DNA of 64,000 nucleotides, taken from contig OW285191.1 in assembly GCA_935421135.1 (NCBI GenBank), forward strand, positions 868,001 to 932,000, given 5' to 3'. Below the pieces are notes generated by a model, which was not told where the DNA came from, ran no database searches, and saw nothing but the letters and a program-made list of their open reading frames with translations. The position numbers were made by a program, and so were the translations under genes. This DNA is from Bugulina stolonifera (taxonomy: Eukaryota; Bryozoa; Gymnolaemata; Cheilostomatida; Bugulidae). Shown here in pieces: positions 1 to 45,700 of the stretch. How positions within the stretch are numbered: the stretch's first letter is position 1; every line of letters starts with the position of its first letter.

Positions 1-354
1 CTGTTCCGCGGAACCCAGTCTAAAGAGCAAACCCCGCGCCCCGCCCTCGCCCCGTCCCACGGCTCGGGCGAGGAGGCGCGCGTACGCGCGCGCCCCCCCG
101 CCCCGCGAACCCCACCCGTCCTCCCTCCACCCGTCCCCGCCCCTCCCCACCCCTCCCCACCCCTCCCCTCTGCCTCGCCCTCCGCCTCGCGGCGGTTCTC
201 GTTTGCGAGTCCAGCCGTGGCCCCACGCCGCCCTCCCCCCGCCCATCCCCCGCCCCTCCCCCGCCCTCCCGCCCCAACGACCCGTCGCGGCCCTCGCGGG
301 CGGACTGTCGGCTGGAGTAGGGTGAAGCGAAGGAAAATACGGGTTAGAGTAATG
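1..354 (+). repeat. Left terminal inverted repeat of element 1 (partial)
   Basis: GC-rich, pyrimidine-rich sequence that is the reverse complement of 11603-11941. It is about 15 bp longer than the right arm because of an insertion near 110-125 (a repeated CCCACCCGTCCTCC-type block). Homology stops at 354, after GGGTTAGAGTAATG. The arms differ by this indel and several substitutions, so they have diverged since insertion. ORFs here are low-complexity Pro/Arg or Gly/Arg and are not genes. Confidence 0.9.
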
Positions 355-398
355 ATAGGCTACACCCGTGCGGAGTGCCCGTGCAGAGTTTACGACGC

Positions 399-412
399 TG
401 ACTATACTACTA
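399..412 (+). other. Internal copy of the element end motif
   Basis: CTGACTATACTACT here matches the right-terminal 14 bp of elements 1 and 2 and has the same orientation as a right end. It lies 45 bp inside the left TIR of element 1, where no terminus is expected. It may be a relic end of another copy or a product of recombination between elements. Confidence 0.6.
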
Positions 413-748
413 TAAGAAACTTACCGAGTGGTGGTGGTGCTTCCGGATGATTTCTTCGCCGGGGACTGTTGAGACTGAACTGGTCGGGGTGACACCGCAC
501 TCGCGCGCTCCTCCGTTCGAGCGCCCCCGGACCTTCGATGAAAGACTCGCGCCTTAACCCTCATTTCCCCCGGACCCTCCCCTAGGGAAATCGCCCGTCC
601 CCGTGACGAGCGGCGAGGGAAAGTGAAGGCGGTGGCTCTTCCACGCTTCAAACCGTAGACTTCGCGAGGAAGTTAGCCGACGACATCATCGCTCGGATGG
701 GTAGAAATAGAAATAGATAAACGGGATAGATGGATGCTTGTCTTCTCA

Positions 749-752
749 TCGC

Positions 753-788
<36 letters not shown>
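749..788. repeat. CAT trinucleotide microsatellite
   Basis: Uninterrupted ATC/CAT triplets, about 13 units. On the minus strand it reads as a poly-Met run in a short spurious ORF. Confidence 0.95.
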
Positions 789-792
<4 letters not shown>

Positions 793-1048
793 CAAATAGA
801 CCCGCCTCTACGATGATGTCGTTGACTCGCCACCAATTTCTTTGACCACCGCGTCCACTTTCCCCCGGGTAGCAAACTCCGATAGGGAGAGAGCGCATCG
901 TGCGCGTGCGATGTCACCCCCCACCTACGAATGAAGACAATAGAAGAAATGTGAACTGATAAGGGGTGAGTATGAGCGGAAGCTGCGCTAGTACCGTCTA
1001 CCCCTTTGGTTTGGAGAGGTAAATGGTTTTTAATGTATTAGCTAGTGT

Positions 1049-1054
1049 TTTATT
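1049..1054 (-). terminator. Candidate polyadenylation signal of polymerase gene
   Basis: TTTATT on the plus strand, AATAAA on the minus strand, downstream of the polymerase stop at 1228. Position is reasonable; cleavage-site evidence is absent. Confidence 0.4.
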
Positions 1055-1227
1055 GCTCAGTTTTAAGGCTACAACCGGTAAACCCTCCGTTTTGAGGACG
1101 GAGACCCTTTACAATAGAGAGTGAATGTGAAAAAAATTATACGGGTATATGTACAAGGGTTATGATGCACTGTTCGTTTACTTTCCAGTTTATCGAATGA
1201 AGTAGTCTCATCTCCGAGAAATCAGTA

Positions 1228-4200
1228 CTAGCATTCTATAGGACTCGTACTCACCCCGTCTTCTGCAACCTTCCGCTTACCATAGAAGTAGGTGAGTCCG
1301 GTCTTTAGCTGGGTGTAGCTATACGTTTGGTTTCCTCTTCTGATAAAACCCCGATTGTCCCCTCTCACCGACTCCCCTGTCCTGAGCACGGAGAGGAACT
1401 TCTCTTTGGTTAGGGCGTTTCCTCTTTTGTTTAGTCCTTTGCTGCTATACTTGCTATCACCATCAGCGGACCAGCAAAAGTATGTTTTTGAGTTGAGCGC
1501 GATGACCCCCTCCCCCCGAAACTCCTCCTTAAACAGGCCGGGGGTTCGTGTTTCGTATCGTTGCACCTTCTCACAACATTCCCTCATCTCCCACTCTTGG
1601 CCGAGCACCTTGGTCGTGATAAAGTCTCCCTTGTGCCTATCGCAGAAGGGTCTGGGAAACCATCTACCATATTCTCTGTAGAACTCTTCTTTTTTATCTT
1701 TTCGGATGACCTCATCTATACTACGAGCACTCAGAGCCATGTAAGCGCTATCCGTGTCCATTTCTACGTACTCAAAGTCCTCTCTGCTGACGAATCTGTG
1801 AAAATAAAACGAACGGGTTGTAGGGGGGGGGGGGGTGGGGGTTGACACCAAAGAATAAATAGAGAAGGATTTGATAAAATCTTTGTATAGTCTAGTTCTA
1901 CTTACCTATCCATAAAGTCGTAGTAGAATTCTAGCATTCTCAACTTGGCTCTCTGGAGGATAACGAATCCTACGACAGATGGAACATCCATTCGAATCTA
2001 AAAGAAAGAAAGAGAGAGAGAGAGTTTACCCTACCACTCAGAAAAAGTTTCGTCAAATCAAGAATCAAAATAAAAAAAAAAGATTGTCAACACTTGCCTT
2101 TTTCTTGTGAAGCTCTATCTCAAAGTAGTTTTCATCAACTTCGTTGAGACTAGAAAAGTGCCTACTCCTCACTTTGACAGCCGCCTCCTCTACTGTCTCC
2201 ACATACTTGACAGTCTTATGTTTCTCTTTATTTGTTATAGTCTTTCCGTAGGCTGAATTCCCAACGAGCTTGCTGGTGCTGGCCAAGAGGGCCAGGTCGG
2301 GGTTCACATCCCCACCTCTTCTTGCGTCTGAGACCGAAGAACCAAAGTCTTTGTAGATGGCTCGTGGGATAAAGTGAACAAACTGATAGATCCTGGTAAT
2401 TATCAAACCTTGATCTAGATACCATCTAGCCAGATCGGAGAGTAGTGTGATTCGCTCGCCAAAAAGACTCCCCACGAGCATTCGCTGAGGTCTCTTCAAG
2501 AATCCGTTCTGTTCGGCAAAAGCGCGCATGTGTTCGCTAAGGTGTTCTCTTCCCACGTTTATATTCTTGAAAATAGGTGCCATCTCAGAGAACTTCGCTT
2601 TTAGCTCTTCGGGTACGGAAATGTCACACTCCACTAAACCATAGTACTCTCCACTACGAATGTTATTGATTATCTTATCGAGGTTGACGTAACCCCTCTC
2701 CGGATAGAGAGAAGAAAAGAAGATGGCGAGAAATGTCCTAACTTCTACATCCGAACGAACTCGCGCTTCCCACTCACACTGCCGAGTGGTGATGAGCTTA
2801 TAGCCTAGAGCCTTGATGTAATCTTCTTTCCTTGCAGTGTCCACCCGGAGCTCTTCATTCGTCATGTTTCTGACACCTTTTCCGTTCCCTCCTAGCTCGC
2901 ACTCGTGCCCATGCCAGTAGCAACCGTGGAATTGGTACACCGTCCGACTCTGTTCGCTATAACCATCCACTGGTAGGTTGTGACAGCCTATCCTCATTTC
3001 TCCTCCATTCTGTTGGTGAAGGATGACCTCTCCTCTCTTCCACGATTGGAACTCTAACCAACCATGCGCCACTTTGCTGAACTTTTTAATAGGTTCTAGA
3101 GCAAAGCCTCGGCTCTCTAGCCTCCGCCTGGGATAACCCGTAGGCATATTCCCCATCATACAGTATAGGTAGAGGGCGTTGGCATCAACTCCCAGAATGG
3201 ACCTACAGGGTTTTGCGGATGTGCCATACATCTTCTCTCGAATAGAGGTCACTCCAACTTCATGATGTCTGTGAAAGATAATGCTTGGCCCTCCCACGAG
3301 GTTATCGCGAAGAGTATGGTACAGACTTTTGCTCTCCTCATTGAACAGACATATGGGTTGCGAGTTGCAAAGTTCGTCTCGGAGAGACATTAACCTATGC
3401 AGCGGAAGAGCGGCTTGTGGAGGAGAGTAGCCATAAGGTCGGGCCTCCACCTCCATAAACAACCATCTGATAGCCAAGCCTGGAAGCGAGATTGCGGATT
3501 TCAACATGTCAATACCCTTTTGTCGATAGATAGAGCTCTGACGTGCAATGGCCTCGATGAATGGGGCCACATCGAGGTTGTTGTACCAGATGAGAAAATC
3601 CCTGAACGTTTCCATGTTCTCTCTTTCCCACACGACCTGACAGTGGTGATAATCTTGCTCACTCAATTCTTGCTGAGTCAGCGAGTTGAAAAAACTCTCT
3701 CGGGGAGGGAGTCCATAATAATCCAACCTTCTCAGGGAATCTACCCAGTCGTAAGGAAAGAATCCCTTACTCTCTGACACACCAAATGCCTTCAAGTATT
3801 TGGAGTAGTTGAAGCCCGGTGCGATAAAGTTGCATATGTCAAGGAACCTAAAACGTCTACTCTCCACGCAGGACATACTGTTAACACGCTTAACGATGAA
3901 GACAAAATCTTCTCCCTCCTCCTCTTGTAGAGAGCGAAGCAAAGGTCCCTTTAGTATATTTAGGTCATACTTTTGTGAGTTGAAACCAACCACCGGAACG
4001 CTGGAGATGTGCTGTTCTAACTCTCTTTCTAATCCGGAGAGACCGGACTTCACCCTGTAAGTCGAGACGTTAGAGAACTTTTCGTCAGCAAAGGCTTCTT
4101 CTCTATCCGCCCGATCCGCAAGGAAAGTAGAGAGTCGCTTGCGTACATCCCGGAATCTTTCTCCGAACAAATCTCCTGCCACGTCAGCAATCTTTGCTAT

Positions 4201-5352
4201 GTATTGGACGAATTGACGAATGCACTTCGTTCCATCCTTGCTGTCGACACTCCTCACAAAACACTTGGCCTGCTCAAACCCCGGGACGTTAGAACATACA
4301 GATATGCTCAGTAACTCGTGTCTTGCACTAAAAGTCATTGTGGAGGTGTTAGTTTGTAGGTTGTCTTTTGGCATGAAGCATTCAATATCATAGGTGATAT
4401 AGTAGGGGTAGTATAAGAGGTCGGGGTTCACCACCTCTATTCCCGCCACTCGCTTGAGTTTTGTGAATATGGTTGGTGGGGGTCCAAACGTTCCACCAGG
4501 GAAAACAAACACCGATGCTTCCTCTGGCGAGCACTTATGTCGCCGTAGGCTGGACAAACGTGTGAAAGCGCCATCGCACAACTTGCAGGTGAAACATCTG
4601 GCAAACGAATCAACATTCTTTATCCAGCTGAAGTGTTTTTCGTACATGTTGACAAAGAGTTTACGGGCTTTGTTTCGTGCCCCAGATGACCAAACTATCG
4701 GAGCTACCCCCTCATCAGTTAGGCAGAAGACTATTATAGATATGTCAAAATGATCTTCCAAAGCCAGCAGATCACTCGCGCCCACCCCGGGAAAGTCTGA
4801 CAAAGTTGATGAGGGTGGGGAAGAAGATCTAGATTGTCTCATGTATTGTTTAAACAAGCGATGTGTTGTGGTCTGAGAGGGGCGATGACAGCAACATCCC
4901 TTCTTTGGGTCGCAGTTACAGTCATACATCATGGCCAAACATCTAAAGAAACACAATTTGTCTGGGTAGGGACGGGCACCTCCTCTGGCCCAAAAGTCTA
5001 CATCTAGTGCTATCACATGTCGGTTGTTAAGTATGTAGTCTGGGAGTTTGCTCACTACACCACCCACCTTGCCAATCTCTAGGAGTTTATAGATGTAGAA
5101 TGTCAAATTTGCAATGTGACGTAAAACCCAAGCGGTGTTCGGTCTCCTTTGTGCTGACCTCTCTCTCAAGTCGAGCTCCTGCACAGATTCGCAAAACTCT
5201 CTCATCTCATTCTCTGCTCTGATCAGTCTTGGCTTGGGGAAGAACGCGGCATTGTTGCTTGATGAGTGAAAGTAGCGCAACTCTCCACTGGTCTTATGCT
5301 CGAGGATGACTCCAGCGCTACAGTTAATCTTCACAGTACAAGGTACTCTCTT
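1228..5352 (-). CDS. Protein-primed family-B DNA polymerase (Polinton type), three exons
   Basis: Replicates the element DNA by protein priming. Exons are 5352-2098, 1997-1906 and 1795-1228. Exon joins keep the frame (phase 0, then phase 2), with polypyrimidine acceptors and an AG|GCAAGT donor for intron 1, a GC-AG intron. Order of motifs: Cys-rich N-terminal region with a CKLC...HKC finger-like motif; ExoI YDIECF (about 4400-4380); ExoII FNSQKYD (about 3985); ExoIII YNNLDV (about 3575); motif A DANALYLY (about 3190); an endonuclease-like FHGCYWHGHEC insert; motif B KLVGNSAYGK (about 2265); motif C EMDTDSAY (about 1755); a KxSSKG motif (about 1445). The C-terminus YFYGKRKVAEDGVSTSP resembles family ends. 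All catalytic acids are present. An in-frame TGA (5355-5353) separates this ORF from the zinc-finger exon. The first ATG after it is at 5205, giving about 1255 residues. Confidence 0.92.
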
Positions 5353-5780
5353 TCACATCGCTCTCAATTTAGTCCACACCTCTTCATCTCCTTCATCTTC
5401 ACATTCCCCTCTCCACACTCGAACGTTGAGAATGTCTTCTACAGGACGAGAGTGTATTGTGGACCTGATCGAACTCCAATAGCGGGCTAGTAGCACCCCC
5501 ATCTCATCCCCCTCTTCAGCTGTTGGAGGTTTGGACCAGAAAACATCATCAAACTTCTCTGCATCCCCCTCATCTTTTTCCGCCTTGGCCTCGCTATGAA
5601 ATCGTCTCATGTGATGACCTAGCTTTCTCCTCCCATCAAAACATCCGCCACAAACCGGGCACTTGTGTGGGTGAGCCTGCGCATGCATTCTCTTCGTGTG
5701 CCTGTCTAGAGAAAACGCTGTTTTGAGAACCAGACCGCATAGTTGACAGGTGTGCTCGGCCTGACGAGAGCTCTCCCCCC
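5353..5780 (-). CDS. C2H2 zinc-finger exon upstream of and in frame with polymerase
   Basis: The minus-strand reading frame opens after a TTTTTATAG acceptor-like site (AG at 5782-5781). It encodes two C2H2 fingers with C-x2-C-x12-H-x4-H spacing (TCQLCG...RMH and CPVCGG...RFH), then about 80 charged residues, ending at TGA 5355-5353. The polymerase frame continues in the same phase directly after this TGA. It may therefore be the true N-terminal part of the polymerase gene, now interrupted by one stop (a CGA-to-TGA change would explain it), or a separate small DNA-binding protein. The 5' exon carrying the start codon was not found; an ATG at 6156 on the minus strand is a possible but phase-mismatched start. 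Role in DNA binding is inferred from the fingers alone. Confidence 0.65.
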
Positions 5781-6126
5781 CTATAAAAATACAAAATAGT
5801 AGGGTGTAAGTTATTCTTTTACCTCATACTACTATTAGCAATCCACAATTGTTACCAACTACCTCATTTAGCACTAACCTTTTTTACTTGTTGACATCTC
5901 TGATCAGGTGCTGACTAGTAGGTAAGTGTCTCTGTTTAGTCTCCCTATAAAAAATATATAGTAGTAGGGTGTAAGTTAATTTTTTTTGTTTTTGGCTCAA
6001 TAGCGTTATATACAATAGACACTTCACAATTGCTGCCGATTACCCTATTTAGCACTAACCTTATGTTGTACTTGTTGACATCTCTGATCAGGCGCTGACT
6101 AGTAGGTAGCTGTCTCTGTTTACTCT
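5779..6126. repeat. Two-copy direct repeat, about 165 and 183 bp
   Basis: Copy 1 (5779-5943) and copy 2 (5944-6126) both begin CCCTATAAAAA, share TAGTAGGGTGTAAGTTA, ATTTAGCACTAACCTT, CTTGTTGACATCTCTGATCAGG and GCTGACTAGTAGGTA, and end TGTCTCTGTTTA. They diverge moderately; copy 2 has a 20-bp insertion. They lie in the 5' untranslated or intronic part of the minus-strand transcription unit. Confidence 0.85.
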
Positions 6127-6181
6127 CACTCTGTTGACTAGAGGCTGATTGTTCATACTGCTAGAGTGAGAAACTCATACC

Positions 6182-6188
6182 TTAAATA
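6182..6188 (-). promoter_or_regulatory. TATA-like box for minus-strand polymerase unit
   Basis: On the minus strand the sequence reads CTATTTAAGG, just outside the 31-bp array and upstream of the zinc-finger exon. It mirrors the TATA box of the divergent plus gene on the other side of the array. Position and motif only. Confidence 0.4.
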
Positions 6189-6238
6189 GTAGTATTCAGT
6201 GGGCGGAGTCTAACCATTTCCCCACCCTTGGCAATACC

Positions 6239-7080
6239 ACCCCGATGTGAATCCGAAGCCTCCCGATGTGAATCCGAAGCCTCCCGATGTGAATCCGAAG
6301 CCTCCCGATGCACCCCGATGTGAATCCGAAGCCTCCCGATGTGAATCCGAAGCCTCCCGATGCACCCCGATGTGAATCCGAAGCTTCCCGATGCATCCCG
6401 ATGTGAATCCGAAGCTTCCCGATGCATCCCGATGTGATTCCGAAGCCTCCCGATGCATCCCGATGTGAATCCGAAGCCTCCCGATGCATCCCGATGTGAA
6501 TCCGAAGCTTCCCGATGCATCCCGATGTGATTCCGAAGCTTCCCGATGCATCCCGATGTGAATCCGATGCATCCCGATGCACCCCGATGTGAATTGACAC
6601 ATCGGGACACATCGGGATGCATCGGGAAGCTTCGGAATCACATCGGGATGCATCGGGAAGCTTCGGAATCACATCGGGATGCATCGGGAAGCTTCGGAAT
6701 CACATCGGGATGCATCGGGAAGCTTCGGATTCACATCGGGATGCATCGGGAAGCTTCGGATTCACATCGGGATGCATCGGGAAGCTTCGGAATCACATCG
6801 GGATGCATCGGGAAGCTTCGGATACACATCGGGATGCATCGGGAAGCTTCGGAATCACATCGGGATGCATCGGGAAGCTTCGGATTCACATCGGGATGCA
6901 TCGGGAGGCTTCGGATTCACATCGGGGTGCATCGGGAGGCTTCGGATTCACATCGGGATGCATCGGGAGGCTTCGGATTCACATCGGGATGCATCGGGAG
7001 GCTTCGGATTCACATCGGGAGGCTTCGGATTCACATCGGGGTGCATCGGGAGGCTTCGGATTCACATCGGGGTGCATCGG
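6239..7080. repeat. 31-bp-period satellite arranged as a giant inverted repeat
   Basis: From 6239 to about 6597 the unit reads CCCGATGTGAATCCGAAGC on the plus strand; from about 6600 to 7080 the reverse complement, ACATCGGGATGCATCGGGAAGCTTCGGAATC-type units, follows. The period is 31 bp (for example CTTCGG at 6661 and 6692), with shortened units near both outer ends. The arms are about 355 and 480 bp and can fold into a long hairpin around 6598. The block lies exactly between the divergent polymerase and plus-strand genes. Open frames across it (His/Arg/Ser/Gly-rich on both strands) are a by-product of the repeat, since three copies of a 31-bp unit span all frames. Confidence 0.97.
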
Positions 7081-7131
7081 GTCACATTGGGATTGGATAA
7101 AAAAAAAGGGAGGAGTCAAGAAATGAGCAGT

Positions 7132-7140
7132 TGTATAAAG
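7132..7140 (+). promoter_or_regulatory. TATA box of plus-strand gene of element 1
   Basis: TGTATAAAG lies about 85 bp before the first ATG (7223), with two inverted CCAAT motifs (ATTGG at 7086 and 7092) about 40-50 bp upstream. The transcription start would fall near 7165. The spacing closely matches that of the plus gene in element 2. Confidence 0.6.
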
Positions 7141-7222
7141 GGAGAGTGGGATCACAGTCTCAGCATTCAAAGTTCAGCACATCACTACTGTACAGCTACA
7201 CTACTACAATAGTACATTATCA

Positions 7223-8582
7223 ATGGATACTGACAACATAGTCCAAAACCAAGAAGAGTTATTTGCGGGCTTAACGGACTCACAAATGGATGGAATTATT
7301 GAAGAAGAAGAGTGCAGTTAGAAGAGGAAAGAAGAGGTGGATGCGTTAAAAGAGGCACGGAAGAAGGGGAAAATAATAGGAGTGGGGAGTCTTGCCCGAA
7401 AGGATCTTTCTAACATGGCGGACTCTCCATCCTCCCCGGAGCGGACCTCGGATAGGGGCGAGACCACAACAACCAAGAAGAGGAAGAACCCAAAAGGAGA
7501 TGAAATCTGTGCTAAGAAAAAGAAGAAACCCCAGGTGATTGTAATATCAGATGATGATGATGATGATGGCCACGGAGCCGATACGGCTACGGAAGAAATG
7601 GATGGTGGTGAGACGACGAAGGGAAAAAAAGCTACCAAGTCCCCTTGCAAGGGGAAGAAAAAGAGCGGGGGACTAAGCCTGGAGAAAGCTCGTGCAGTGG
7701 CGGCAACCCTAATGTAAGTAGCCCTATTCGTATATCTATAAATTACCGTACTATCTTTCTCCCGTTTAACCGCTTTGTCGGATCTATATACACCACTTTC
7801 GTTATTGTAGGAGCATGGGAGCGGAGAAGAGGAGCTCTCTGCAGACAACGGTGAAGCTGTCAGAGCTAGAGCCAGGAACTGTGCTAGAAGTGAGTGGAGG
7901 TTCGGTGGTTGAAACGGCATTCGGAAAAGCATTCTTAGCCAGGGCAAGCTATGTGGATGACAAGGGGATGAGACATTGCATCAGCTTTCACACCAACATT
8001 CGTCACGCCATGCCCAAGCTAGCGGATGTCAAAGAAGAGGAGCTAAAGGACCTTACCCTTCCACCTAGGATCATGGTGTACTTGGGACAGCAGGAGACCG
8101 CTAAAGGACAAAACACATTCAATCGTATCGAGAGCGTGTGCTCCCTGCCAGGAGCAGCCATGAAAAAGCTGGCCGGTGACTTGAGAAAGAAGACCTTGGC
8201 CCAGTTGGAAGAATTTTTTCGAGTGCAAACGCTATCTTCATTCCCTGTTGGTTCTGTGCTGGTGGTGACCGCGCTCCGACCCACATACGTCCCAAGATGC
8301 GGTGATGGTGATAATGCGAGCAACTCCATTGCCACCTACGAGTGCCGGATTGGAAACGAAGAAAAAAAGGGAGAGGTCTTCCTTCCGGGACGTCTGGCAG
8401 TTTCGATGAAAGAGCTCCTCCCCTCCGTGATGGTGTACAAGGGACAGAAGACTTCCAAGAGTGGGAGAACATTCTACGATTGTGCCATTCTAGACTCCAT
8501 CCTCGGCGAGCGTCTCCCACTGCACAGTTTTGAGGCAAAAACTTTTGTCATTCACACTCATTCGTGTCTACTTATCAATTGA
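7223..8582 (+). CDS. Protein with acidic/basic tail and duplicated beta-rich domain, two exons
   Basis: Exons 7223-7713 and 7811-8582 join across a 97-bp intron (GTAAGT...TTATTGTAG), which completes an ATG codon. A frame opens at ATG 7223 but meets TAG at 7319-7321. The next good start is ATG 7415 (AACATGG), giving 356 residues; the 32-codon piece could be an upstream ORF, or the stop a lesion. The N-terminal part is low complexity: Lys/Arg clusters, a D6 run, GKKKSGG. The C-terminal part holds two copies of one domain: PGTVLEVS...MVYLGQQETAKGQNTFNRIES and VGSVLVVT...MVYKGQKTSKSGRTFYDCAIL, about 100 residues each. This pattern would suit OB-fold single-strand DNA-binding protein and the polymerase neighbour fits, but I do not recognise the family. 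The last 15 residues run into tandem-repeat DNA, so the original C-terminus may be lost. Confidence 0.7.
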
Positions 8583-8700
8583 TTTTATATTATTACTCTC
8601 AAACTCGTGTATCGTTAGCCTTACTCATATTTTTCATAGTCGTATATCGGTTTTTATCGATTGATTTTATATTATTACTCCCAAACGTATTGAAAATTAA
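8577..8700. repeat. 105-bp tandem repeat, left part (split by insertion)
   Basis: Contains TTGATTTTATATTATTACTC, ACTCGTGTATCGTTAGCCTTACTCATATTTTTCATAGTCGTATATC and CAAACGTATTGAAAATTAA. The same blocks recur three times at 11311-11600. The nested element at 8701-11310 separates the two halves. Confidence 0.9.
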
Positions 8701-11314
8701 CCCATTAGGTCCTATACCGCCCGTTGCCGCCCTGGCAACTTTTTCCTGTAACGCCCGTAGCCGCCTGCTCCACTGAGGTTTCACTTTCATTTCTGTATCA
8801 GCTTTTATCAAGCTGAAACTGCTATAATAATTGGTTGCTAGGATACTAGAGCTATCCAGCAGTATTCTAGGAGTAGAAAATTATATAGGTCAGATGAGAA
8901 AATTTTGAGAACAGCGTGTTTGAAAATTGGAGATTTTACCGCGATGGCTGCTTCCATTTGGACATTGCCAATGATTGATAATGACATTGCTTGTTGTGAT
9001 AGAGCTTGTGATTATAGCTGATTGAGAGTATGTAAGTATTATGACAGCTATAAAGCATTTGCTCAGCTATTGGAATAAAAATTACAGAAATAATCATAAT
9101 GAAGATTGATGTTCCAGCTATTACTATCACACTAAATCACTCAATGATTTTGATGAATAATCCAAGATATTTCTAACATTTTAGTAGCAGAGTTAAAACA
9201 TAATGCCCTACTGCTATAATTATTATAAAGATGTAGCTAGTCCCAGGCTAGTGGCCTTGCAGATTTATTTATTTATTATTATATTTATTTTATTTCTATA
9301 TTTATATCTGCTGGCTACTAGCTGGTACTCTGGACTGGCATACACAATATATCTTACAATTATTCTTTACTCAATCTTATGACATGGTGTAAAACTACCA
9401 CATATAACAATATACATGTACATGTAGGCATATGTTATATTAGTAGATATTTTTCATAAGGTCATCTAACAAGTTCTAAATTCAGAAGGAGCATGGCCTA
9501 TAGCCTGTATATATGCAGCATATCCACTTCCTGGTTATAGTAGTTTCCACATCTAATGTACAAGCACAGGTTCACAGGTTCCATGCAGGTAGCCAGGTAT
9601 CATTATTCACTTCCTGGTTAGCAACGGAAACTCATCTCTGCCCTCTGTGTTATTTGTACTTCTAATAGTACACAGTTGATGTTCTAGTAGACTAGTAGGA
9701 ACATGTGCATCTAGGTGGCCAGGTACCATTGTTCACTTCCAGGTTAGCAGTGGAAACTCATCCAAATGCCTCTTGTTATCTGTACATGTACTGGTACACA
9801 GTTAGTGTTTTGGTAGCTCAGTAGGTACAGATGCTTGTACATGTAGGTGGTCAGGCAAAAACACTCACTTCCCGGTTCATAGTTTTTCATCCGTATTTTT
9901 TCTGATATTTCGTACATGATTCCATGTTCAAGTCGCCTAGTAGGGAAGCCCAAGTGTACATGTATGTTGCCAGACAACCAACCATCTAGTTAGTCACTTG
10001 TGAATTATCCATGGTTCAGACTACATCATATAGTACACAGGTTCACTTGGTAGCAAGTTCCAATATCATTGTTCCGCTTCTTGTTCTGTTGCGCACACAC
10101 ACCAGCCTAGTAGTTAGACCCTTCCTCCTGTAAGTACATGTACTAGACTGACTGCCACTGGCTCCGCAATCATTGATCTTCCCAGTGTAGGTCCTATGTG
10201 CTGTGTGGAGGCTACATGCACTAAATTTACAAGCTAATAGCCAGCCTTGTAGTTATGAATCAAGCTTTACCCCTTATACTCTCTCTAATTGCACTTGCAC
10301 CTGTAGGTGTACATCTATCATGTTCACTTTCTGGTTAGAAAGTTAGTACCAGGTTCAATGTTATAGTAACCTAGCAGACACATATACATGGGGGGGGGGG
10401 GAGAGAACAAACTAAGAATTCACTTCCTGGCCATTAGTTTCCAATTCATAAGATTATATTTTACCCAAAAGTTTGTGTAAATTATAATTATTTATTTGCA
10501 CAGGTAAAGGTAGAGGTACTAACAGTAACAAGCCATCAACATTGATCCCATCATTAGCAGGCATTGTTTGTGACATTACTTTTCCGTGTCATTTGCCACA
10601 TGCATATCCACCTGTTATATTATTCTGTTTCTATTATTTATGTACATATTATATGTAGCTACGTACCATCTTCTCAACTGTATGGCATATTTTATATAAT
10701 ACCATATTATTTTTATCGACATTGCACATACTGATCATAAATAGATCACATGTAAACATTTTGATGTAGTATTGGTTTTATAAGGTAGCACCTCTAACAC
10801 TATCTGACATAAAACAGTTCTATTATACAATGTACATGTACTTGTATGAAATGTATTCATGATAATTTTCAAATTGACATACCCAGAAACTCTTCCTCTG
10901 TTGAGCATTACACATAAGACTTGGAGAGCTATTACATATATCAAATTGTAGAGAATTTTGTGCAGATTCAGAATAAGTAAGAAAATAGAATACATCTAAG
11001 AGAGAATTCAAATTAGAGGATATGATATGTGAGCCCTCAGCCTTGTGCATTGAGGGAAATGATAAAAGTAATATAGCTAAAGTTCATTGCCCTCTTGGAT
11101 GTTCAATATAGGCAGCACAAAATTGAAATACATGTCAAGATGTAGAGAATGTTCTGCTGATTCGGAATATATGCATATGTGTATATGAAAATGTTGATAT
11201 TTTTAACACAAATTACATAATAATGAAGCTATGTCCATAAGCCTGCTAAACAATGAATTCTCTTAGGACAGAAATGCCCATTGAATTAGAACACAATAGG
11301 ACCTAATGGGTTAA
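8697..11314. mobile_element. Nested piggyBac-like non-autonomous element with TTAA duplication
   Basis: The element proper is 8701-11310 (2610 bp), flanked by TTAA at 8697-8700 and 11311-11314. The ends are a 15-bp inverted repeat, CCCATTAGGTCCTAT. TTAA duplication and CCC...GGG ends are diagnostic of piggyBac-superfamily insertion. Removing it with one TTAA restores GAAAATTAAAACAAACTCG, the sequence present in the uninterrupted copies near 11413 and 11519. The interior is AT-rich, has no ORF over about 90 codons and no transposase, and contains repeated CACTTCCTGGTT-type subunits. It must have moved with a transposase supplied elsewhere. Confidence 0.88.
9524..9990. repeat. Diverged tandem subrepeats inside the piggyBac-like element
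   Basis: CACTTCC(T/A/C)GGTT recurs near 9524, 9609, 9734 and 9866, each followed by similar text with GGAAACTCATC, TAGTACACAG, TAGTAGG and ACATGTAGGTGG..CAGG. The period is about 85-130 bp. More diverged copies continue near 10325 and 10419. No coding content. Confidence 0.65.
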
Positions 11315-11600
11315 AACAAACTCGTGTATCATTACCCTTACTCATATTTTTCATAGTCGTATATCAAGTTTTTTATCGCTTGATTTTATATTATTACTCT
11401 CAAACGTATTGAAAATTAAAACAAACTCGCGTATCATTACCCTTACTCATATTTTTTTTGTAGTCACATATCAAGTTTTTTATCGATTGATTTTATATTA
11501 TTACTCTAAAACGCATTGAAAATTAAAACAAACTCGTGTATCATTACCCTGACTCATATTTTTCATAGTCGCATATCATCTATTCTAGAATACATCACAC
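11311..11600. repeat. 105-bp tandem repeat, right part (three copies)
   Basis: Copies start near 11315, 11420 and 11523. Each holds AACAAACTCG(T/C)GTATCATTACCC, TTACTCATATTTTT, ATATCAAGTTTTTTATCG and GATTTTATATTATTACTC, ending CGTATTGAAAATTAA; the last is truncated at the TIR. This array forms the subterminal region of element 1. Confidence 0.93.
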
Positions 11601-11602
11601 AC

Positions 11603-12139
11603 CATTACTCTAACCCGTATTTTCCTTCGCTACACCCTACTCCAGCCGACGGTCCGCCCGCGAGGGCCGCGACGGGTCGTTGGGGCGGGAGGGCGGGGTA
11701 GGGGCGGGGGATGGGCGGGGGGAGGGCGGCGTGGGGCCACGGCTGGACTCGCAAACGAGAACCGCCGCGAGGCGGAGGGCGAGGCGGAGGGGAGGGGTGG
11801 GGAGGGGTGGGGAGGGGCGGGGACGGGTGGAATTCGCAGGGCGGGGGGGCGCGCGCGTACGCGCGCCCCCTCGCCCGAGCCGTGGGATGGGGCGAGGGCG
11901 GGGCGCGGGGTTTGCTCTTTAGACTGGGTTCCGCGGAACAGCCGATGAGGTTTTTGAAACCCCACCCGCGATGGGGGGGAGTAGGTTCTAGGGCTTTGCA
12001 CATAGAGTGAGGTTTAGGGGAGAGGAGGGGGCGAGAGGACGGGTGGGGTGGTCGTCCGCCCGGGGAGTTTTTGGATCTAGGGCTAATACGACGCGGAAAT
12101 GGCCGGGTGTCTGTGTAGATCTGCACTGACTATACTACT
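11603..12139 (-). repeat. Right terminal inverted repeat of element 1
   Basis: Complete arm of 537 bp. Its inner 339 bp pair with 1-354; the outer 198 bp have their partner outside the window. It is GC-rich and ends TGCACTGACTATACTACT. ORFs here are Gly/Arg or Pro/Arg low complexity and not genes. Confidence 0.9.
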
Positions 12140-33161: not shown

Positions 33162-33205
33162 TATGCATTCTATGTATTCTATGCATTCGGTGCATAGAAT
33201 ACATT

Positions 33206-33576
33206 AGTAGTATAGTCAGTGCACTTCTAGACAGACACGCACTCATTGACCCCTGTTTTCAACCAATCACAAGCCGGTATTTCCGATTTCAACCAATCAC
33301 AGAAGAGCACAAAAATTTTGCACACGACCTTGCCAAGGTCACCCCAAAATCCCCCCTTCTGATTGGTCGAAAAAACATTTGCACACTTGACCCCGAACCC
33401 GGCCACGACCCCTTCCCTTCCTCCTTCCCACCCTCCTCCCCTCCCCCTCCCCCACCTCCCACTCCTCCCTCCTCCCCGCCACCGCCCTCGTCCCGTCCGC
33501 GCCACCGCCGTCGCCGCCGCCGCCACCGCCGCCCTCACCACCGCCGCCGCCGCCGCCACCACCACCGCCCTCACCA

Positions 33577-33607
<31 letters not shown>

Positions 33608-34483
33608 CGCCACCACCACCACCGCCGCCACCACCACCACCGCCACCGCCGCCGCCGCCGCCACCACCACCACCACCACCGCCGCCGCCGCCGCCGCCAT
33701 CACCGTCATCACCGCCACCCCTCCTCCACCGCCGCCCACCCTCCCCCCCGCAACCCCCACTCACCCGAACGACCAATCGTTTGAGGCGGTCAAGCCGCGT
33801 CCGCCCACGTTGCGTGCGGCGCCGACCGTACACGTGGAGGCGACGCCGGTGCCCCGTATCCACCGGGCCAAGCGACTAGGCAGCGGCCCGCCGCTTCTCC
33901 CGAGCCCTCCACTCGAAAAGCTTGTGATCTAAACGAGCGAATTCGGCTGCGCTTCTTCGCCTATAACTCTCATTAGCGATAAGAAGAAGTACTACGGAAG
34001 GCTTGGTTTCAGCGATAAGAAGAAGTACTACGGAAGGCTTGGTTTATGATGTGCATTGCATTGTTAATAAAGAAATGTGTAAAGTCTCGGCTATAAATAT
34101 ACTGATGGGAAGAAGGGTTGTTTCTATAATATACATTGTATTGACAACAAAGAACCGTGTGCATGTGTTAAGTCAGCATATATATATATAATGCATTAAA
34201 TAAACTTTTCACAATGGTGACAATAGAATGAATAAAAGATTGTGTACACGTGTTAAAACACAATTGAAAGAATAAAAGACACATATTTAAAAGAGTATGT
34301 CATATCTGTTATTAGCAAGGAAGTCTGTGTGCATGTGTTAAGACAGTGTATATTATACATTAGATAAAATTTTCACAATAGTAGCAATAGAATAAATAAA
34401 AGGTTGTGTGCATGTGTTAAGTCAGCATTATGTAATATATTAAATAAACTTTTTACAATAGTAGCAATAGAATAAATAAAAGA
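33206..34483 (+). repeat. Left terminal inverted repeat of element 2
   Basis: Pairs with 42757-41521. From the end inward: terminal AGTAGTATAG; four CCAATCA(C/G)-like sites; a GC-rich CCG/CCA tract; a CpG-rich segment; AT-rich repeated text. This arm has a 37-bp direct duplication (AGCGATAAGAAGAAGTACTA... twice, near 33977-34045) absent from the right arm, explaining the 41-bp length difference. ORFs of Pro/His/Arg or pure Gly across the arm are low complexity and not genes. Confidence 0.95.
33480..33720. repeat. CCG/CCA triplet tract in left TIR
   Basis: Long run of CCG and CCA triplets (GGC/GGT on the other strand, at 42215-42470 in the right TIR). The G-rich strand has many GG-N1 repeats and could form quadruplexes. 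The two arms differ by about one triplet. Confidence 0.9.
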
Positions 34484-35036: not shown

Positions 35037-38000
35037 TTAGAGCTTTTCTTCACTGACTCGAAGGTAAGCTTCAGCTTGTGCTATTACCTCTCTGTGATAC
35101 CCATTCTTCTTGAGATGAAAAATGGCAGAGCGGTAATACTCAACTGCTCCAGAGAAAAAAGATGGGGGGAGTCTGCTTCGATCAACTAGTTCACTGACAG
35201 TCTCCTCTTCTATGGGGGTAATAGTGGTGGGGGTATTAAGATTGAGTTCAGACGAACAAGAAGGAGATTGCGAGCTAAGTAGCTCTCTTCCAAAAGAAAG
35301 AGAGGGTGAAGCTAAAGAAAAGGAAGAAGTGGTAGTAGTAGAAGTAGTAATAAAAGTAGGTATTGAAAGACTAGTAATTGTATTATTAGACCTTCCAAGA
35401 GAAAAAGAGGGTGAATCTAAGAAAAAGAGTGGAGCAGGTGAAGAGGTGAGAGTAGAAGTAGGTATCGAAACAGTGGTAACTGTATCATCAAATCTTTCAG
35501 GAGAATGAGAGGGTGAATGTGAAGAAAAGAGTGGGGGAAAAGAAGCAGTAGAAGGAGTGGTAGTAATGGTAGTAGTAATAGTAGTAGTTGTAAGAGAAGA
35601 AGTAGAGGTGGTAATGTCTCCATTAGTAAGAGAGTTACTGATGGAAGAAGCATCTGAATCAAAATGATGGTGAGAAGGGAGAGGAAATTGTGAAGAGCAC
35701 ACCCCAGACTTTACAGATCTTTCAGGAGAATGAGAGGGTGAATGTGAAGAAAAGAGTGGAGGAAAAGAAGTAGTAGAAGGAGTAGTAGTAATAGTAGTAG
35801 TTGTAAGAGAAGAAGTAGAGATGGAAATGTCTCCATTAGTAAGAGAGTTACTGATGGAAGAAGCATCTGAATCAAAATGACGGTGAGAAGGGAGAGGAAA
35901 TTGTGAAGAGCACACCCCAGACTTTAAAGAGAATGGAGTAGTAGACATCCCCTTAAAGAAGGGAGGGTATACTACCCCACCAACAGTTGTTGGAGTGTAT
36001 GCGGGGATGAGTATTTTGGAAGGTGGAGAGTGACCAGTGACCCTTTGCAAAAAGGATACGGTCTTTTTTAGTGAATAGATATCTGTTAGAAAGCGTGTGT
36101 TGAATGAGATGTGTCGGTGACAGGGCTTTCCATCAATATGATGATTAGATGGAAAGTTGTAGTGTCTATTCATCCCCTCATCATCTACTGTTATGTGATA
36201 GCAAAAACAGATTCGGAGCAAAAAATGCTGTTGAATGTGGACACCTCGTCGGTGCCCAACATTCTTATTGCATAAAAAACAGGGGTCATCCGATTCAAAT
36301 GGCTTTGTTAGTGACATCTCCAGTCTTCTTTTTGTCTCATCACTAACAAAGACATAGAATCTTAGACCCCCCTTACATATCGACTTTGCTCTGAGTCCTA
36401 AAAAAGAAAGAAAATAACAAGAATAAGTGAGAGAGAACATATGACTTACTTGTAAATCAGAAAAAAAAAAAGATTCTAAATCTACAAATAGATACTAAAT
36501 CATTCTTACCTATCTCGAAGCCATCTACTCCCCCACATTGTTCAAATAAAGCAATCTCTTCTTCCCCTAGTTCTGTTTCTTTTTCATTCTATAATGTAAA
36601 TAAAATGTGCAGTGACTAATTAACAAACTACATTAACATAGCTATTTGTAATATATGGTTTTTGAAGAATTTGATGAAAAAACTGGCACTCTAAGTACTA
36701 AGCAAGTCTACTAAAGCCTGTCTATTTACTCACATAAAGAGAAATACATCATCAACATAAGAAAACCAGTTGTAATTTATGTTATATTTTTTCACATAAG
36801 AAAAGAAAAAAAAAGTGTCTTATTGATAAAAATAATACATAAGAAAGAAAGTGCAATACTTATAATAAAAATATCACTAATCTTTAACATCTTAGACATG
36901 GTAAGAGACTTATAGAATTAGAGAAAATCATACTATGACTAATTAACATCTGGCTTTAAAAAGGAAGTAGTCTCTTTTGACATTCTAGACATGGTAAGAG
37001 GCTTATAGTATAAAAAAGTACATCATCATTATGTGTAACTAACATGTACTTCTGCAGAAATGTCAGTAATCTCCTTTGACATCTTAGAAACCCAACACCA
37101 TAGTGGATTGAAGGTGTAATGCATGTGTGAACAAATAAGATAATAGACTAACCATTTCTGGAGATGGGATTCTTTTCCTCGAGATTCGTCTTCTGTCTTC
37201 CGAGTCGTACGTAATCATATACTTCGTACCTTTTTTTGATGTTTTAATTTTTCTTATATATTTCTTTCTTTGATATTTAGATGTAGAAGCCTGTAAGTAT
37301 ATGTAGAGTAATAAACATATACCAAAGCATAAGTCAAGTAAACGGAACTACTAATGCAACATAGTTACTAAACAAAGAAAATAAGAATGAATAAAAATAT
37401 ATAGGAAACATGAGCATAGTGGTAGTGTACAAGTCAAGTATACAAAAATACTAATCCCTATAGTTATTGAGCAAGAGAATAAGAATACTGATAACAACTA
37501 CTTTTAGAATGAATAGCATAGGCAAGTTAAATAACAAGTAATAATATATACTAAAGCCTTAACTGTGTGGATAAAACCACCAACTCACCATAGTCACTGG
37601 GGAATAGAAACAAGAACAGATAAACAGAACATGTGTTAGCAAGAATTAATTTTGAAGTGAATAATCAGTATAAGACAGAAAAAAAACCAAAAATACCACC
37701 CCTTACTTTTTATGTGTTTTTCAACCAATTGAGTCTTTCTGATGGTAAGCTCCTCCCAAACAGAGAGATAAATTACTCTTGTGTTAGTGCAGATCTATTT
37801 ATTAGAATTAATCAGTTAGTCTTTTTAGCTTCAAGTTCATCCTAAGTAGTGTAATAAATCACTTTGGTGTAGACCTATTTATTAGAATTATTCAGTTAAT
37901 CTTTTTAGCAACAAGTTCATCCCAAGTAGTGTAATAAATCACTTTAGTGCAGACCTATTCATTAGAATTATCCAGTTAATCTTTTTAGCAGCAAGTCCAC

Positions 38001-39924: not shown

Positions 39925-39965
39925 CCAATCAGCTTTATTTGTATCTTTTTATTCACTATATAAAG
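39925..39965 (+). promoter_or_regulatory. CCAAT and TATA promoter of the IkB-like gene
   Basis: CCAAT (39925-39929) and CTATATAAAG (39956-39965) lie about 85 bp before ATG 40051, predicting a start of transcription near 39990. This is the strongest core promoter in the window. Confidence 0.7.
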
Positions 39966-40050: not shown

Positions 40051-41504
40051 ATGGAAAGTGGATATGGATCAAGCGAGTATAGCAACAAGCTAATGACTCC
40101 TATAAACCAAGAGCTGATGAAGGTAACAGTGGAAAGATGTACAGAACAAAGCAAGTATGAGAATAAAGACTTATTTGAGGGGGTGTCTGAGCTCTTTCTC
40201 CAAAAAAGCTTACCTCTAGATTGGCAGAAATGGGATCCTTTAACCGATATTCGTAATAAGCTTAGCACACAGTTACTAGAAGAAATTCGTTCTATCTTTT
40301 GGGAGCAAGATGGAAAGGATGAAGAGTTGTAAGTTATACATACTTCCAACTATTTTTTTTTTTTTTTTTTTTTTGTTTCGTATTGTCTTTTATGATCAAA
40401 ATAAAATATGATAGACAAATTTCCCATATAACTACCTCTCAACTATGTGAAAAACAAATATCATGCTAAATGATGTAGTGAGGTACTAGAAGCAGCCCGA
40501 GATAGAGATGAGAGAGCCATTGCACTCGCGGTATTTGTTGCGAGGAGTCACAAACAACTGAATACAAAGAATGCGAATCGGCAGACATTACTTCACCTAA
40601 CTGTACAGTCTTATTGTTCGGATTCACTAATTCGTCTCATCATCACAAGGGGAGCGGATGGAGCAATAGCCGATGCTTGGGGTTAGTGTTTTATAGCACC
40701 AATGTTTGCATGCATTGCTTGTTAAAAAATATAGTATTGCAAAACTTGTAACAATTCGATACTTATCTATATTGCTAATGTTTATTTGGAAGGTGACACC
40801 CCCCTTCACATTGCTGCACGTCTGGGTAGAGCTAAGGTTATTCATGCTCTAACCACAAGTTTGACCAGAGCAGAAGTAAAGCATCCATACTTCAGAGTTC
40901 CTTACAAATCACTTCCCCAAGACAATGTACAGAGCTACAATCATGATGGAAGGAGTGTAGTCCACCTCATTGTTGAAACAGCGCATAGCAGCAAGCATAG
41001 AGAGGCACTAAAAGTACTAAAAAAAAATACTCGGGCTGACTTAGATATGAGGGTAAGTGAATACATTACAGTGGAATAAAAGTAGAGTAGATCGAATTGA
41101 TAAGTTAGATGGGGAGTTTAATTCTATTCTCTTGTTTGATATTATAGCGAATGGGAGATGGATATGCCCCATCTCACATTGCCATAGAGAATGAAGACTA
41201 CGAATGTCTACATACATGTCTAAGATTGGGAGCTGATTCTGAAGTTCGTAACTACAAAAGTGAAACTCCTCAACAACCAGCTCACCTCTACAAATCAGCA
41301 GATATGGTAAGGGACCAACAACATAAAGAAGTATAGATTTCTTGCTTTGTCCACCTTGAGTGATATTCGTCTGAGTAAAAAACTAAAATCATCTTGTAGG
41401 TAAGACTGTGTCAAGAGTTTGGAGCTGGAGCATATCAATTAGAGTATGCTGAGACCGAAGTCGTAAACATTATAGCTCCTACGACTTCTGATGAAGATGA
41501 GTAA
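40051..41504 (+). CDS. IkB-like ankyrin-repeat protein, five exons
   Basis: Exons 40051-40328, 40479-40681, 40793-41052, 41148-41306 and 41400-41504 join in frame (phases 2, 1, 0, 0), all with GT...AG sites, giving 334 residues. That is close to the usual 300-360 of IkB proteins. Residues 2-7 are ESGYGS, matching the DSGxxS-type beta-TrCP phosphodegron with E for D. Ankyrin signature motifs are at TLLH (129-132), TPLH (163-166, in GDTPLHIAARLGRAKVI), SVVH (215-218) and APSH (254-257), with the longer linker before the SVVH repeat that IkB proteins also show. The C-terminus TSDEDE is acidic, like an IkB PEST tail. IkB proteins hold NF-kB in the cytoplasm; a version on a mobile element could blunt host innate signalling. 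Other ankyrin proteins remain possible. Confidence 0.8.
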
Positions 41505-41520: not shown

Positions 41521-42355
41521 TCTTTTATTTATTCTATTGCTACTATTGTGAAGTTTATTTAATATATTACATAATGCTGACTTAACACATGCACACAACC
41601 TTTTATTTATTCTATTGCTACCATTGTGAAAAGTTTATCTAATGTATAATATACACTGTCTTAACACATGTACACAGACTTTCTTGCTAATAACAGATAT
41701 GACATACTCTTTTAAATATGTGTCTTTTATTCTTTCAATTGTGTTTTAACACGTGTACACAATCTTTTATTCATTCTATTGTCACCATTGCGGAAAGTTT
41801 ATTTAATGTATTATATATGCTGACTTAACACATGCACACGTTTCTTTATTGTCAATACAATGTATATCATAGAACCAACCCTTCTTCCCATCAGTGTATT
41901 TATAGCCAAGACTTTACACATTTCTTTATTAACAATGCGATGCACATCATAAACCATCCCTTCCGTAGTACTTCTTCTTATCGCTAATGAGAGTTATAGG
42001 CGAAGAAGCGCAGCCGAATTCGCTCGTTTAGATCACAAGCTTTTCGAGTGGAGGGCTCGGGAGAAGCGGCGGGCCGCTGCCTAGTCGCTTGGCCCGGTGG
42101 ATACGGGGCACCGGCGTCGCCTCCACGTGTACGGTCGGCGCCGCACGCAACGTGGGCGGACGCGGCTTGACCGCCTCAAACGATTGGTCGTTCGGGTGAG
42201 TGGGGGTTGCGGGGGGGAGGGTGGGCGGCGGTGGAGGAGGGGTGGCGGTGATGACGGTGATGGCGGCGGCGGCGGCGGCGGCGGTGGTGGTGGTGGTGGT
42301 GGCGGCGGCGGCGGCGGTGGCGGTGGTGGTGGTGGCGGCGGTGGTGGTGGTGGCG

Positions 42356-42386
<31 letters not shown>

Positions 42387-42757
42387 TGGTGAGGGCGGTG
42401 GTGGTGGCGGCGGCGGCGGCGGTGGTGAGGGCGGCGGTGGCGGCGGCGGCGACGGCGGTGGCGCGGACGGGACGAGGGCGGTGGCGGGGAGGAGGGAGGA
42501 GTGGGAGGTGGGGGAGGGGGAGGGGAGGAGGGTGGGAAGGAGGAAGGGAAGGGGTCGTGGCCGGGTTCGGGGTCAAGTGTGCAAATGTTTTTTCGACCAA
42601 TCAGAAGGGGGGATTTTGGGGTGACCTTGGCAAGGTCGTGTGCAAAATTTTTGTGCTCTTCTGTGATTGGTTGAAATCGGAAATACCGGCTTGTGATTGG
42701 TTGAAAACAGGGGTCAATGAGTGCGTGTCTGTCTAGAAGTGCACTGACTATACTACT
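41521..42757 (-). repeat. Right terminal inverted repeat of element 2
   Basis: 1237 bp, the reverse complement of 33206-34483 apart from the missing 37-bp duplication and small differences. It starts 16 bp after the IkB-like stop codon, so the 3' end of that transcript must lie in the TIR. It ends GCACTGACTATACTACT. Confidence 0.95.
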
Positions 42758-45700
42758 TACATTTTATGCATAGAATGCATAGAATACATTGATCACATAG
42801 AATGCATTCTTTGCACTCTATGCATTCCATGTAATCTATGCGTTCTATGCATAGAATACATAGATTGCATTCTATGCATTCTATGCATAGAATACATAGA
42901 AGACATCGAAGGCATAGAAGACATAGAATGCATTCTGTGCAATCTATGCACTCTATGCAGAGAATACATAGAAGACATAGAAGACATAAAATGCATATAA
43001 TGCATTCCATGTAATCTATGCACTCTATGCATAGAATACATTGATCACTTAGAATACATTCTATGCACTGAATGCATAGAATGCATAGGATGCATAGAGT
43101 GCATTCTATTCATTCTATGTATTCTAAGCATTCTATGTAGTCTTTGCATTGCATAGAACACATAGATTGCATTCTATGCATGAAATACATAGAAGACATA
43201 GAAGACATAGAATGCATAGAATGCGTTCCATGTAATCTATGCACCCTATGCATAGAATACATAGATTGCATACTATGCATTCGATGCATAGAATACATAG
43301 AATACATTGATTACATAGAAGGCATTGGATGTAATCAATGTATTTTATGCATTCTATGCATAGAATACATTGATCACATAGAATGCATTCTATGCACTCT
43401 ATGCCTTCCATGTAATCCATGCGTTCTACGCATAGGATACATAGATTGCATTCTATGCATTCTATGCATAGAATACATATAATACATAGATTGCATTCTA
43501 TGCACTCTATGCATTCCATGTATTCTATGCATTCTATGTATTCTATGCATTCGGTGCATAGAATACATTTTATGCATAGAATGCATAGAATACATTGATC
43601 ACATAGAATGCATTCTTTGCGCTCTATGCATTCCATGTAATCTATGCATTCTATTCATGGAATACATAGATTGCATTCTATGCATTCTATGCATAGAATA
43701 CATTGAATACATAGAAGACATAGAAGACATAGAATGCATATAATGCCTTCCATGTAATCTATGCATTCTATGCATTCCATGTAATCTATGCGTTCTATGC
43801 ACAGGATACATAGATTGCATTCTATGCATTCCATGCATAGAATACATAGAATACATAGATTGCACTCTATGCACTCTATGCATTCCATATATTCTATGCA
43901 TTCTATGTATTCTATTCATTCGATGCATAGAATACATTTTATGCATAGAATGCAAGGAATATTGATCACATAGAATTCATTCTATGCATTCTATGCCTTC
44001 CATACAATCTATGCATTCTATGCATAGAATACATAGATGGCACTCTATGCACTCTATGCATTCCATGCACTCTATGCATTCCATGTAATCTATGCATTCT
44101 ATGTATTCTATGCATTCGGTGCATAGAATACATTTTATGCATAGAATGCATAGAATACATTGATCACATTGAATGCATTCTATGCACTCTATGCATTCCA
44201 TATAACCTGTGCATTCTATGCATAGAATACATAGATTGCATTCTATGCCATCTATGCATAGAATACATTGAATACATAGAAGACATATAATGCATTCCAT
44301 GTAATCTATGCACTCTATGCATAGAATACATTGATCACATAGAATACATTCTATGCACTGAATGCATAGAATGCATAGGATGCATAGAGTGCATTCTATT
44401 CATTCTATGTATTCTAAGCATTCTATGTAGTCTTTGCATTGCATAGAACACATAGATTGCATTCTATGCACTCTATGCATTCCATGTAATCTATGCATTC
44501 TATGTATACTATGTATTCTATGTATCCGATGCATAGAATACATTTTGTGCATAGAATGCATTGAATACATTGATCACATAGAATGCATTCTATACACTCT
44601 ATGCATTCCATGTAATCTATGCATTCTATTCATGGAATACATAGATTGCATTCTATGCATTCTATGCATAGAATACATTGAATACATAGAAGACTTAGAA
44701 GACATAGAAGACATAGAAGACATAGAATGCATATAATGCCTTCCATGTAATCTATGCATTCTATGCATAGAATACATAGATTGCATTCTTTACATTCTAT
44801 ACATTCTATGCATGAAATACATAGAAGACATAGAAGACATAGAATGCATAGAATGCGTTCCATGTAATCTATGCACTCTATGCATAGAATACATAGATTG
44901 CATACTATGCATTCGATGCATAGAATACATTTTATGCATAGAATGCAAGGAATACATTGATCACATAGAATTCATTCTATGCATTCTATGCATTCCATGC
45001 AATCTATGCATTCTATGCATAGAATACATAGATGGCACTCTATGCACTCTATGCATTCCATGCACTCTATGCATTCCATGTAATCTATGCATTCTATGTA
45101 TTCTATGCATTCGGTGCATAGAATACATTTTATGCATAGAATGCATAGAATACATTGATCACATTGAATGCATTCTATGCACTCTATGCATTCCATATAA
45201 CCTATGCATTCTATGCATAGAATACATAGGTTGCATTCTATTCCATCTATGCATAGAATACATTGAATACATAGAAGACATATAATGCATTCCATGTAAT
45301 CTATGCACTCTATGCATAGAATACATTGATCACATACAATACATTCTATGCACTGAATGCATAGAATGCATAGGATGCATAGAGTGCATTCTATTCATTC
45401 TATGTATTCTAAGCATTCTATGTAGTCTTTGCATTGCATAGAACACATAGATTGCATTCTATGCACTCTATGCATTCCTTGTAATCTATGCATTCTATGT
45501 ATACTATGTATTCTATGCATCCGATGCATAAAATACATTTTGTGCATAGAATGCATTGATACATTGATCACATAGAATGTATTCTATACACTCTATGCAT
45601 TCCAGGTAATCTATGCATTCTATTCATGGAATACATAGATTGCATTCTATGCATTCTATGCATAGAATACATTGAATACATAGAAGACATAGAAGACATA

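Follow-up and report, generated by a model that had tools for sequence, protein, structure and literature searches.

A mobile element of the bryozoan Bugulina stolonifera, carrying an IkB-like gene that is present in many near-identical copies, suggests a stolen brake on host defences. The element, here called E2, lies within a stretch of 64,000 nucleotides of contig OW285191.1 (assembly GCA_935421135.1, positions 868,001 to 932,000 of the forward strand), referred to below as the window. An element family of Polinton (Maverick) type has probably taken a host IkB gene as DNA, introns included, and carries it on a separate segment, its protein most likely binding Rel, resisting destruction and damping NF-kB. 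Together with E1, a polymerase-bearing element at the left of the window, and a third class of element that encodes virion proteins, E2 looks like one part of a Polinton divided among three elements, of which one is equipped with an immune regulator.

The IkB-like gene spans positions 40051-41504 of the window. The original prediction had proposed five in-frame exons encoding 334 residues, and this model holds: the gene has four GT-AG introns and 334 codons plus a stop, its exon lengths add up to 278+203+260+159+105 = 1005 nt, and the ATG and all eight splice dinucleotides are preserved in 42/42 aligned mobile copies, the window copy included. Its start at 40051 is preceded by an in-frame stop ending at 40038, and 16 bases separate its 3' end from the inner edge of the right inverted repeat of E2. 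The gene was analysed exon by exon, the exons never being joined, and all profiles and comparisons are exon-wise. Its parts are listed here with their identity to a host locus described below.

39957..39965, + strand: possible TATA box, TATATAAAG, putative and proposed from sequence only
40051..40328, + strand: exon 1, N-terminus MESGYGSS; 48% over 92 residues
40479..40681, + strand: exon 2; 75%; best Protein Data Bank (PDB) profile match Bcl-3, 4.3e-8
40793..41052, + strand: exon 3; 80%; Pfam Ank above cut-off
41148..41306, + strand: exon 4; 79%; Pfam Ank under cut-off
41400..41504, + strand: exon 5, acidic end PTTSDEDE and stop; 71%, with a 6-residue gap

Exon 3 was recovered at 150 scored places out of 179 candidates; these include one host locus and hence 149 mobile places, among them the window copy, and comprise 82 full-length matches at 100% identity, two with a stop and a few partial ones. 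For the alignment, 46 loci were reduced to 42 by leaving out the host locus (L067) and the truncated L053, L068 and L069. Among these 42 copies, 32 look intact, seven have an in-frame stop and three more an exon indel. In a set of 40, obtained by setting aside the window copy and the badly aligned L070, 16 distinct indels affect the 449 intron bases and 7 the 1005 exon bases, and all 7 belong to four decayed copies. Chance open frames are ruled out by this concentration of indels in introns and by the splice sites preserved throughout. When changes are counted as independent, the distinct exon substitutions of the 40 copies are 51 changing versus 44 silent, with an expectation of about 78% changing. 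Leaving out exon 3, by which the copies had been picked, gives 34 changing versus 37 silent (p 1e-8, or 1.5e-5 with transitions weighted fourfold), and exon 3 alone, with 17 changing or stop versus 7 silent, has no silent excess. The motif ESGYGS, residues 2-7 of the mobile protein, is kept in 40/40 copies, as is PTTSDEDE, which bears out the acidic C-terminus noticed in the window. The mobile IkB gene model is thus real and its protein is under constraint. Two of the copies, L041 and L043, both have a 188-base insertion in intron 3.

The same gene is found at C5:15.178-15.181 Mb (the host locus, L067), with identical intron positions in 4/4 cases and identities, from exon 1 to exon 5, of 48, 75, 80, 79 and 71%. 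This locus looks, from its sequence, like the host's own IkB gene. It has 126 extra N-terminal residues in a single open frame, a predicted extension, with DSGFES at residue 39 and ESGYGS at residue 128. The canonical degron DSGFES is therefore in the host extension and absent from the mobile gene, while ESGYGS is common to both; the degron-like ESGxxS motif that had been pointed out at the N-terminus of the mobile protein is well conserved but non-canonical. The mobile gene accordingly looks like a host IkB captured as DNA, minus the part with the canonical degron. Capture would have proceeded from host to element and, judging from the architecture, the C5:15.18 Mb locus may be the captured gene itself, or a sister of a gene captured in another lineage. 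Mobile exon 1 also aligns, at 50% over 24 columns, with the region around the first motif of the host gene, and the N-terminal trimming may have taken place in more than one way. Summed over exons 1-4, host and mobile genes differ at a proportion of 0.195 of nonsynonymous sites (pN) and 0.698 of synonymous sites (pS), the latter being saturated.

Tandem ankyrin repeats are supported by Pfam in exon 3 (Ank, 23 versus a cut-off of 21.1 bits) and by the PDB profile search in exon 2, exon 4 being sub-threshold at 15.9 bits against the same cut-off. In the exon-wise comparison with structures, the exon 2 profile, built from host and mobile copy, returned Bcl-3 first. The IkB-type character initially assigned to the repeats is supported by the kinship with the host locus, and in this profile IkB-alpha and IkB-beta are outranked as structural matches. 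Like IkB, Cactus and Bcl-3 proteins, the mobile protein combines ankyrin repeats with an N-terminal degron-type motif and an acidic C-terminus, and it closely matches a host locus that bears DSGFES; unlike them, it is encoded on a transposable element and lacks the 126-residue host extension. Because of the exon 2 profile, the degron-type motif, the acidic tail and the Rel-homology exons present at two places in the host genome, IkB is the best reading among ankyrin proteins, with moderate support over other ankyrins, and inhibition of NF-kB would be its predicted activity. An unrelated ankyrin gene was rejected given the host-locus match and the exon 2 profile. Capture from a host p105-like NF-kB gene was also rejected, the best match in the part of C1:15.07-15.08 Mb compared being 28% over 28 residues (E 0.27). 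In that region, L066 (C1:15070001-15080000, minus strand) contains ankyrin-like frames downstream of the Rel-homology exon C1:15080926 on the same strand, and the two perhaps form a p105-like host NF-kB gene.

E2 itself is 9.55 kb long (33206-42757), with termini AGTAGTATAG...CTATACTACT, terminal inverted repeats (TIRs) of about 1.3 kb that are 94% identical, and a 6-bp target duplication, TACATT, on both sides. The earlier statement that the gene lies inside a precisely bounded mobile element is thereby confirmed. Its features, other than the IkB-like gene, are the following.

33200..33205, no strand: left target-site duplication TACATT, from the sequence
33206..34483, + strand: left TIR, beginning AGTAGTATAGTCAGTGC; 94% identical to the right end
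35040..36404, - strand: last exon of the companion gene, an open frame used as a query of 455 codons
38888..39895, no strand: minisatellite between the two E2 genes, with CCCGATGTG-type units; a similar array occurs in E1
41521..42757, - strand: right TIR; 94% identical to the left end
42758..42763, no strand: right target-site duplication TACATT, from the sequence

A search of the genome with the E2 end, in which the best 40 of 800 candidates were scored, found its first 205 bases at 100% identity at 40/40 scored places, all on contig C1; with the 149 mobile places of exon 3, this supplies the further copies that the original prediction had proposed looking for. Of these 40 places, 36 form 18 head-to-head pairs with a spacing of 8.6-15 kb, and 6-bp duplications flank 13/13 E2-type pairs for which both flanks were read. 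The companion gene (35040-36491) matched zero Pfam families above cut-off and zero PDB entries. It was scored at 93 places (of 237 candidates), 87 of which have IkB exon 3 at 3.3-7.4 kb; the companion and IkB genes therefore travel together. One 8.6-kb pair with E2-type ends, L088 (C1:17540000-17543400), has no frame of at least 100 codons in the 3.4 kb read and is perhaps a non-coding E2 derivative. At L015-L020 (C1:14.20, 14.30 and 14.36 Mb), three virion-type elements have one common duplication, GCCATG, and flank; because three of the 13 pairs share these, they appear to stem from a single insertion through later segmental duplication.

The virion class has the same TIR as the IkB class, and 11/30 inner ends of E2-type TIR loci match the left end of a virion-class element. 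Its representative, an E2-ended pair of about 10.6 kb without IkB (C1:14200014-14210583), was read over 8 of its 10.6 kb in two pieces. It encodes a packaging ATPase (Pox_A32, 1.9e-6), an rve integrase (1.3e-11) with a chromodomain (1.2e-6), a 461-residue capsid protein and further frames, including a weak protease match (E 0.4); PHROGs was informative for the integrase only. The capsid frame has only a weak capsid match in Pfam (0.2). A public protein identical to it over 448 residues has a predicted fold with a mean predicted local distance difference test score of 85.5, which matches capsid proteins of PBCV-1, Sputnik and mavirus (best E 1.3e-18), and on this structural model the protein is of the double-jelly-roll type. 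Viral contigs scanned for the capsid, IkB exon 3 and the polymerase yielded zero confirmed relatives.

The polymerase class is represented by E1, whose termini were located at C5:867803 and 880139. Its ends share 17 bases with those of E2 and are 91% identical over 33, so that the idea of E1 ends unrelated to E2 proved wrong.

1..12139, no strand: element E1, left end 198 bases outside the window at C5:867803; duplication ATTGTA
2065..5352, - strand: type B DNA polymerase frame; Pfam DNA_pol_B_2, 1.8e-6, 27.6 bits, above cut-off

The polymerase has 42 scored copies in the genome and 90 relatives, including frames in sea anemone, lancelet and sea urchin records. In the window (2065-5823), its frame has 1095 codons versus 1238-1303 in the other 41 scored copies, and because of this shorter length the window copy looks interrupted upstream. 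Another E1 gene, starting MDTDN (7224-8580), is interrupted early on by an in-frame stop in the window copy. Over its first 112 residues it is 97% like a frame that the virion-type element carries at its end, and there the frame continues. Near its left end, E1 also contains the terminus motif, GACTATACTACT, a second time (400-411).

The gene sets of the three classes are mutually exclusive by tblastn in the copies read, save for one gene start shared between E1 and the virion class. Polymerase, integrase, ATPase and capsid were all sought by tblastn in E2 and none was found, and no polymerase was found in the pieces read of the virion class. Genome-wide, where the best 42 of 478 places were scored for the polymerase, the best 92 of 272 for the capsid and the 149 mobile ones for IkB, there were 0 polymerase-capsid and 0 polymerase-IkB pairs within 20 kb, and 3 capsid-IkB pairs, none of them within 8 kb; among the many other candidates, complete units may occur. 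The 18 E2-type pairs on C1 contain IkB in 7 cases, capsid in 7, neither in 4 and both in 0.

Target duplications of 6 bp and AG...CT ends are Polinton traits. Inverted ends with 6-bp duplications of this kind are found in E2 and in 13/13 E2-type pairs, the ends here are likewise AG...CT, and the three classes together hold a type B polymerase, an rve integrase, a packaging ATPase and a double-jelly-roll capsid, as Polintons, or polintoviruses, do. Polintons are described as single 15-20 kb transposons with their core genes together (PMC4028283), whereas the copies here measure 9.5-12.3 kb and have exclusive gene sets, one class with an IkB gene. Among scored places, 0/42 polymerase copies lie within 20 kb of the 92 capsid places, and core genes in one unit of 15-20 kb were thus not found. 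The description of E2 as a Polinton-ended element hence applies to its duplication and to ends shared with an integrase- and capsid-bearing element, but E2 has, by tblastn, no polymerase, integrase or capsid gene of its own and is not, alone, a complete Polinton.

These data would fit the following course of events. A Polinton-type (Maverick) family would have acquired a host IkB gene at the DNA level with its introns, and carried it on a TIR-bounded segment of its own, alongside one companion gene. Elements with common ends would be inserted by the virion-class integrase, which probably moves the IkB segment in trans, since the ends of the latter are those of the integrase/ATPase/capsid segment; virion-class proteins would perhaps also package it in trans, and the E1-encoded polymerase would copy the segments. 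The mobile ankyrin protein would most likely bind host Rel/NF-kB proteins and, without DSGFES, may escape signal-driven destruction, the host NF-kB response being held down during element replication. What the analysis establishes is the structure of the gene, its relation to the host locus, its mobility and copy number, the constraint on its protein, the common ends, and the separation of the gene sets among scored copies; the direction of capture, Rel binding, a gain of stability from the lost degron, and movement and packaging in trans are inferred. It is conceivable, and we propose it tentatively, that the whole represents a segmented polintovirus with three separately integrated segments: one for the polymerase, one for virion and integration functions, and one for immune control, with a captured, degron-trimmed host IkB as a stolen NF-kB brake.

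Several results weigh against this reading. A scored polymerase is present in two E1-type pairs (C5:867803 and C1:6086149) out of 13 and absent from the other eleven; exons 1, 2 and 5 have no family match in Pfam; in the exon 2 profile, IkB-alpha (0.0035) and IkB-beta (0.025) rank under Bcl-3, Mib1 and engineered repeat proteins, and the profiles of exons 3 and 4 match ankyrins generally rather than IkB specifically; ESGYGS could itself still work as a degron; no kB consensus site was found across E2; and the silent bias is equal in changes seen once and in changes common to several copies, so that selection on the spreading lineage is not separable from selection after insertion. Confidence in the split, and in the best explanation, is lowered because of the eleven E1-type pairs and because the identity as an IkB comes from one exon profile plus architecture. 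The main rival, plausible without being probable, is that E2 is a satellite, i.e., an independent TIR element using the integrase, capsid and polymerase of a Polinton, its IkB serving the satellite or even the host, in that it would moderate inflammation or restrain the helper. The absence by tblastn of any mobility or virion gene in E2, the existence of a non-coding-looking element with the same ends and, though scoring depth differs, the 149 scored IkB places compared with 92 for the capsid and 42 for the polymerase all suit a satellite; yet the virion class also is without polymerase in the pieces read, so no class is self-sufficient among the copies read.

Next comes a Bcl-3-like role, in which the mobile protein would be a nuclear cofactor tuning or activating Rel-driven transcription, perhaps at the element's own promoter. 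The best match of exon 2 is indeed Bcl-3, but a degron-type N-terminal motif and a short acidic end are better suited to cytoplasmic IkBs and E2 has no kB consensus, which makes this role unlikely. It is somewhat less likely still that capture was passive, the gene hitch-hiking without function for the element: with numerous copies nearly identical, their spread may have come too late for decay to show, and 10/42 have a stop or an exon indel, but exon changes are biased towards silent ones, indels are chiefly intronic, and the silent excess relative to the host gene is strong, even if part of that constraint may have acted on the host branch. The reverse direction, with the C5:15.18 Mb gene being an old element copy adopted by the host, appears very unlikely. 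Synonymous saturation points to an ancient split, or to one in another lineage, and would accommodate it; against it stand the absence of E2 sequence within 4 kb on either side of the host locus (compared with E2 only) and the longer, degron-bearing N-terminus and open exons of the host gene.

Ankyrin regulators of NF-kB are familiar from viruses: polydnavirus vankyrins, which are short and have neither degron nor acidic tail, and poxvirus ankyrin proteins are virus-borne and act on NF-kB. The mobile protein resembles them as an ankyrin protein on a virus-like carrier and differs in that its gene retains the host five-exon structure. Giant Gypsy-like elements of planarians, which are reported to contain ankyrin repeats as well as BIR and BCL2-like motifs, offer an earlier example of such cargo, on another kind of element (PMC6431247). 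As for segmentation, bidnaviruses indicate that Polinton-derived replication can be segmented (PMC4061559, PMC11071296), and they also share a Polinton-derived polymerase and inverted ends with the elements described here (PMC4061559). They differ in being single-stranded, with two segments in separate capsids and a parvovirus-type capsid gene. To our knowledge, bidnaviruses do not occur as multi-copy chromosomal insertions with an integrase, and we know of no earlier segmented Polinton; the three-class split of polymerase, virion genes and IkB would, if true, be the first. A literature search, incomplete in its coverage of adintoviruses, returned zero cases of ankyrin, NF-kB or captured host immune genes in a Polinton. 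It is still an open question whether the Polintons of animals are live viruses facing host immunity; a constrained IkB on an element with Polinton ends would point to this, and to NF-kB as a force opposing them. Because one genome holds so many copies that are nearly identical, this host allows transcription, packaging and effects on NF-kB to be tested directly.

Finally, Rfam gave zero matches in the window at gathering thresholds. Outside the two elements (12140-33199 and 42764-64000), the window contains large satellite arrays of ATGCATTC/GAATGCAT type, which are the insertion sites of both E1 and E2.
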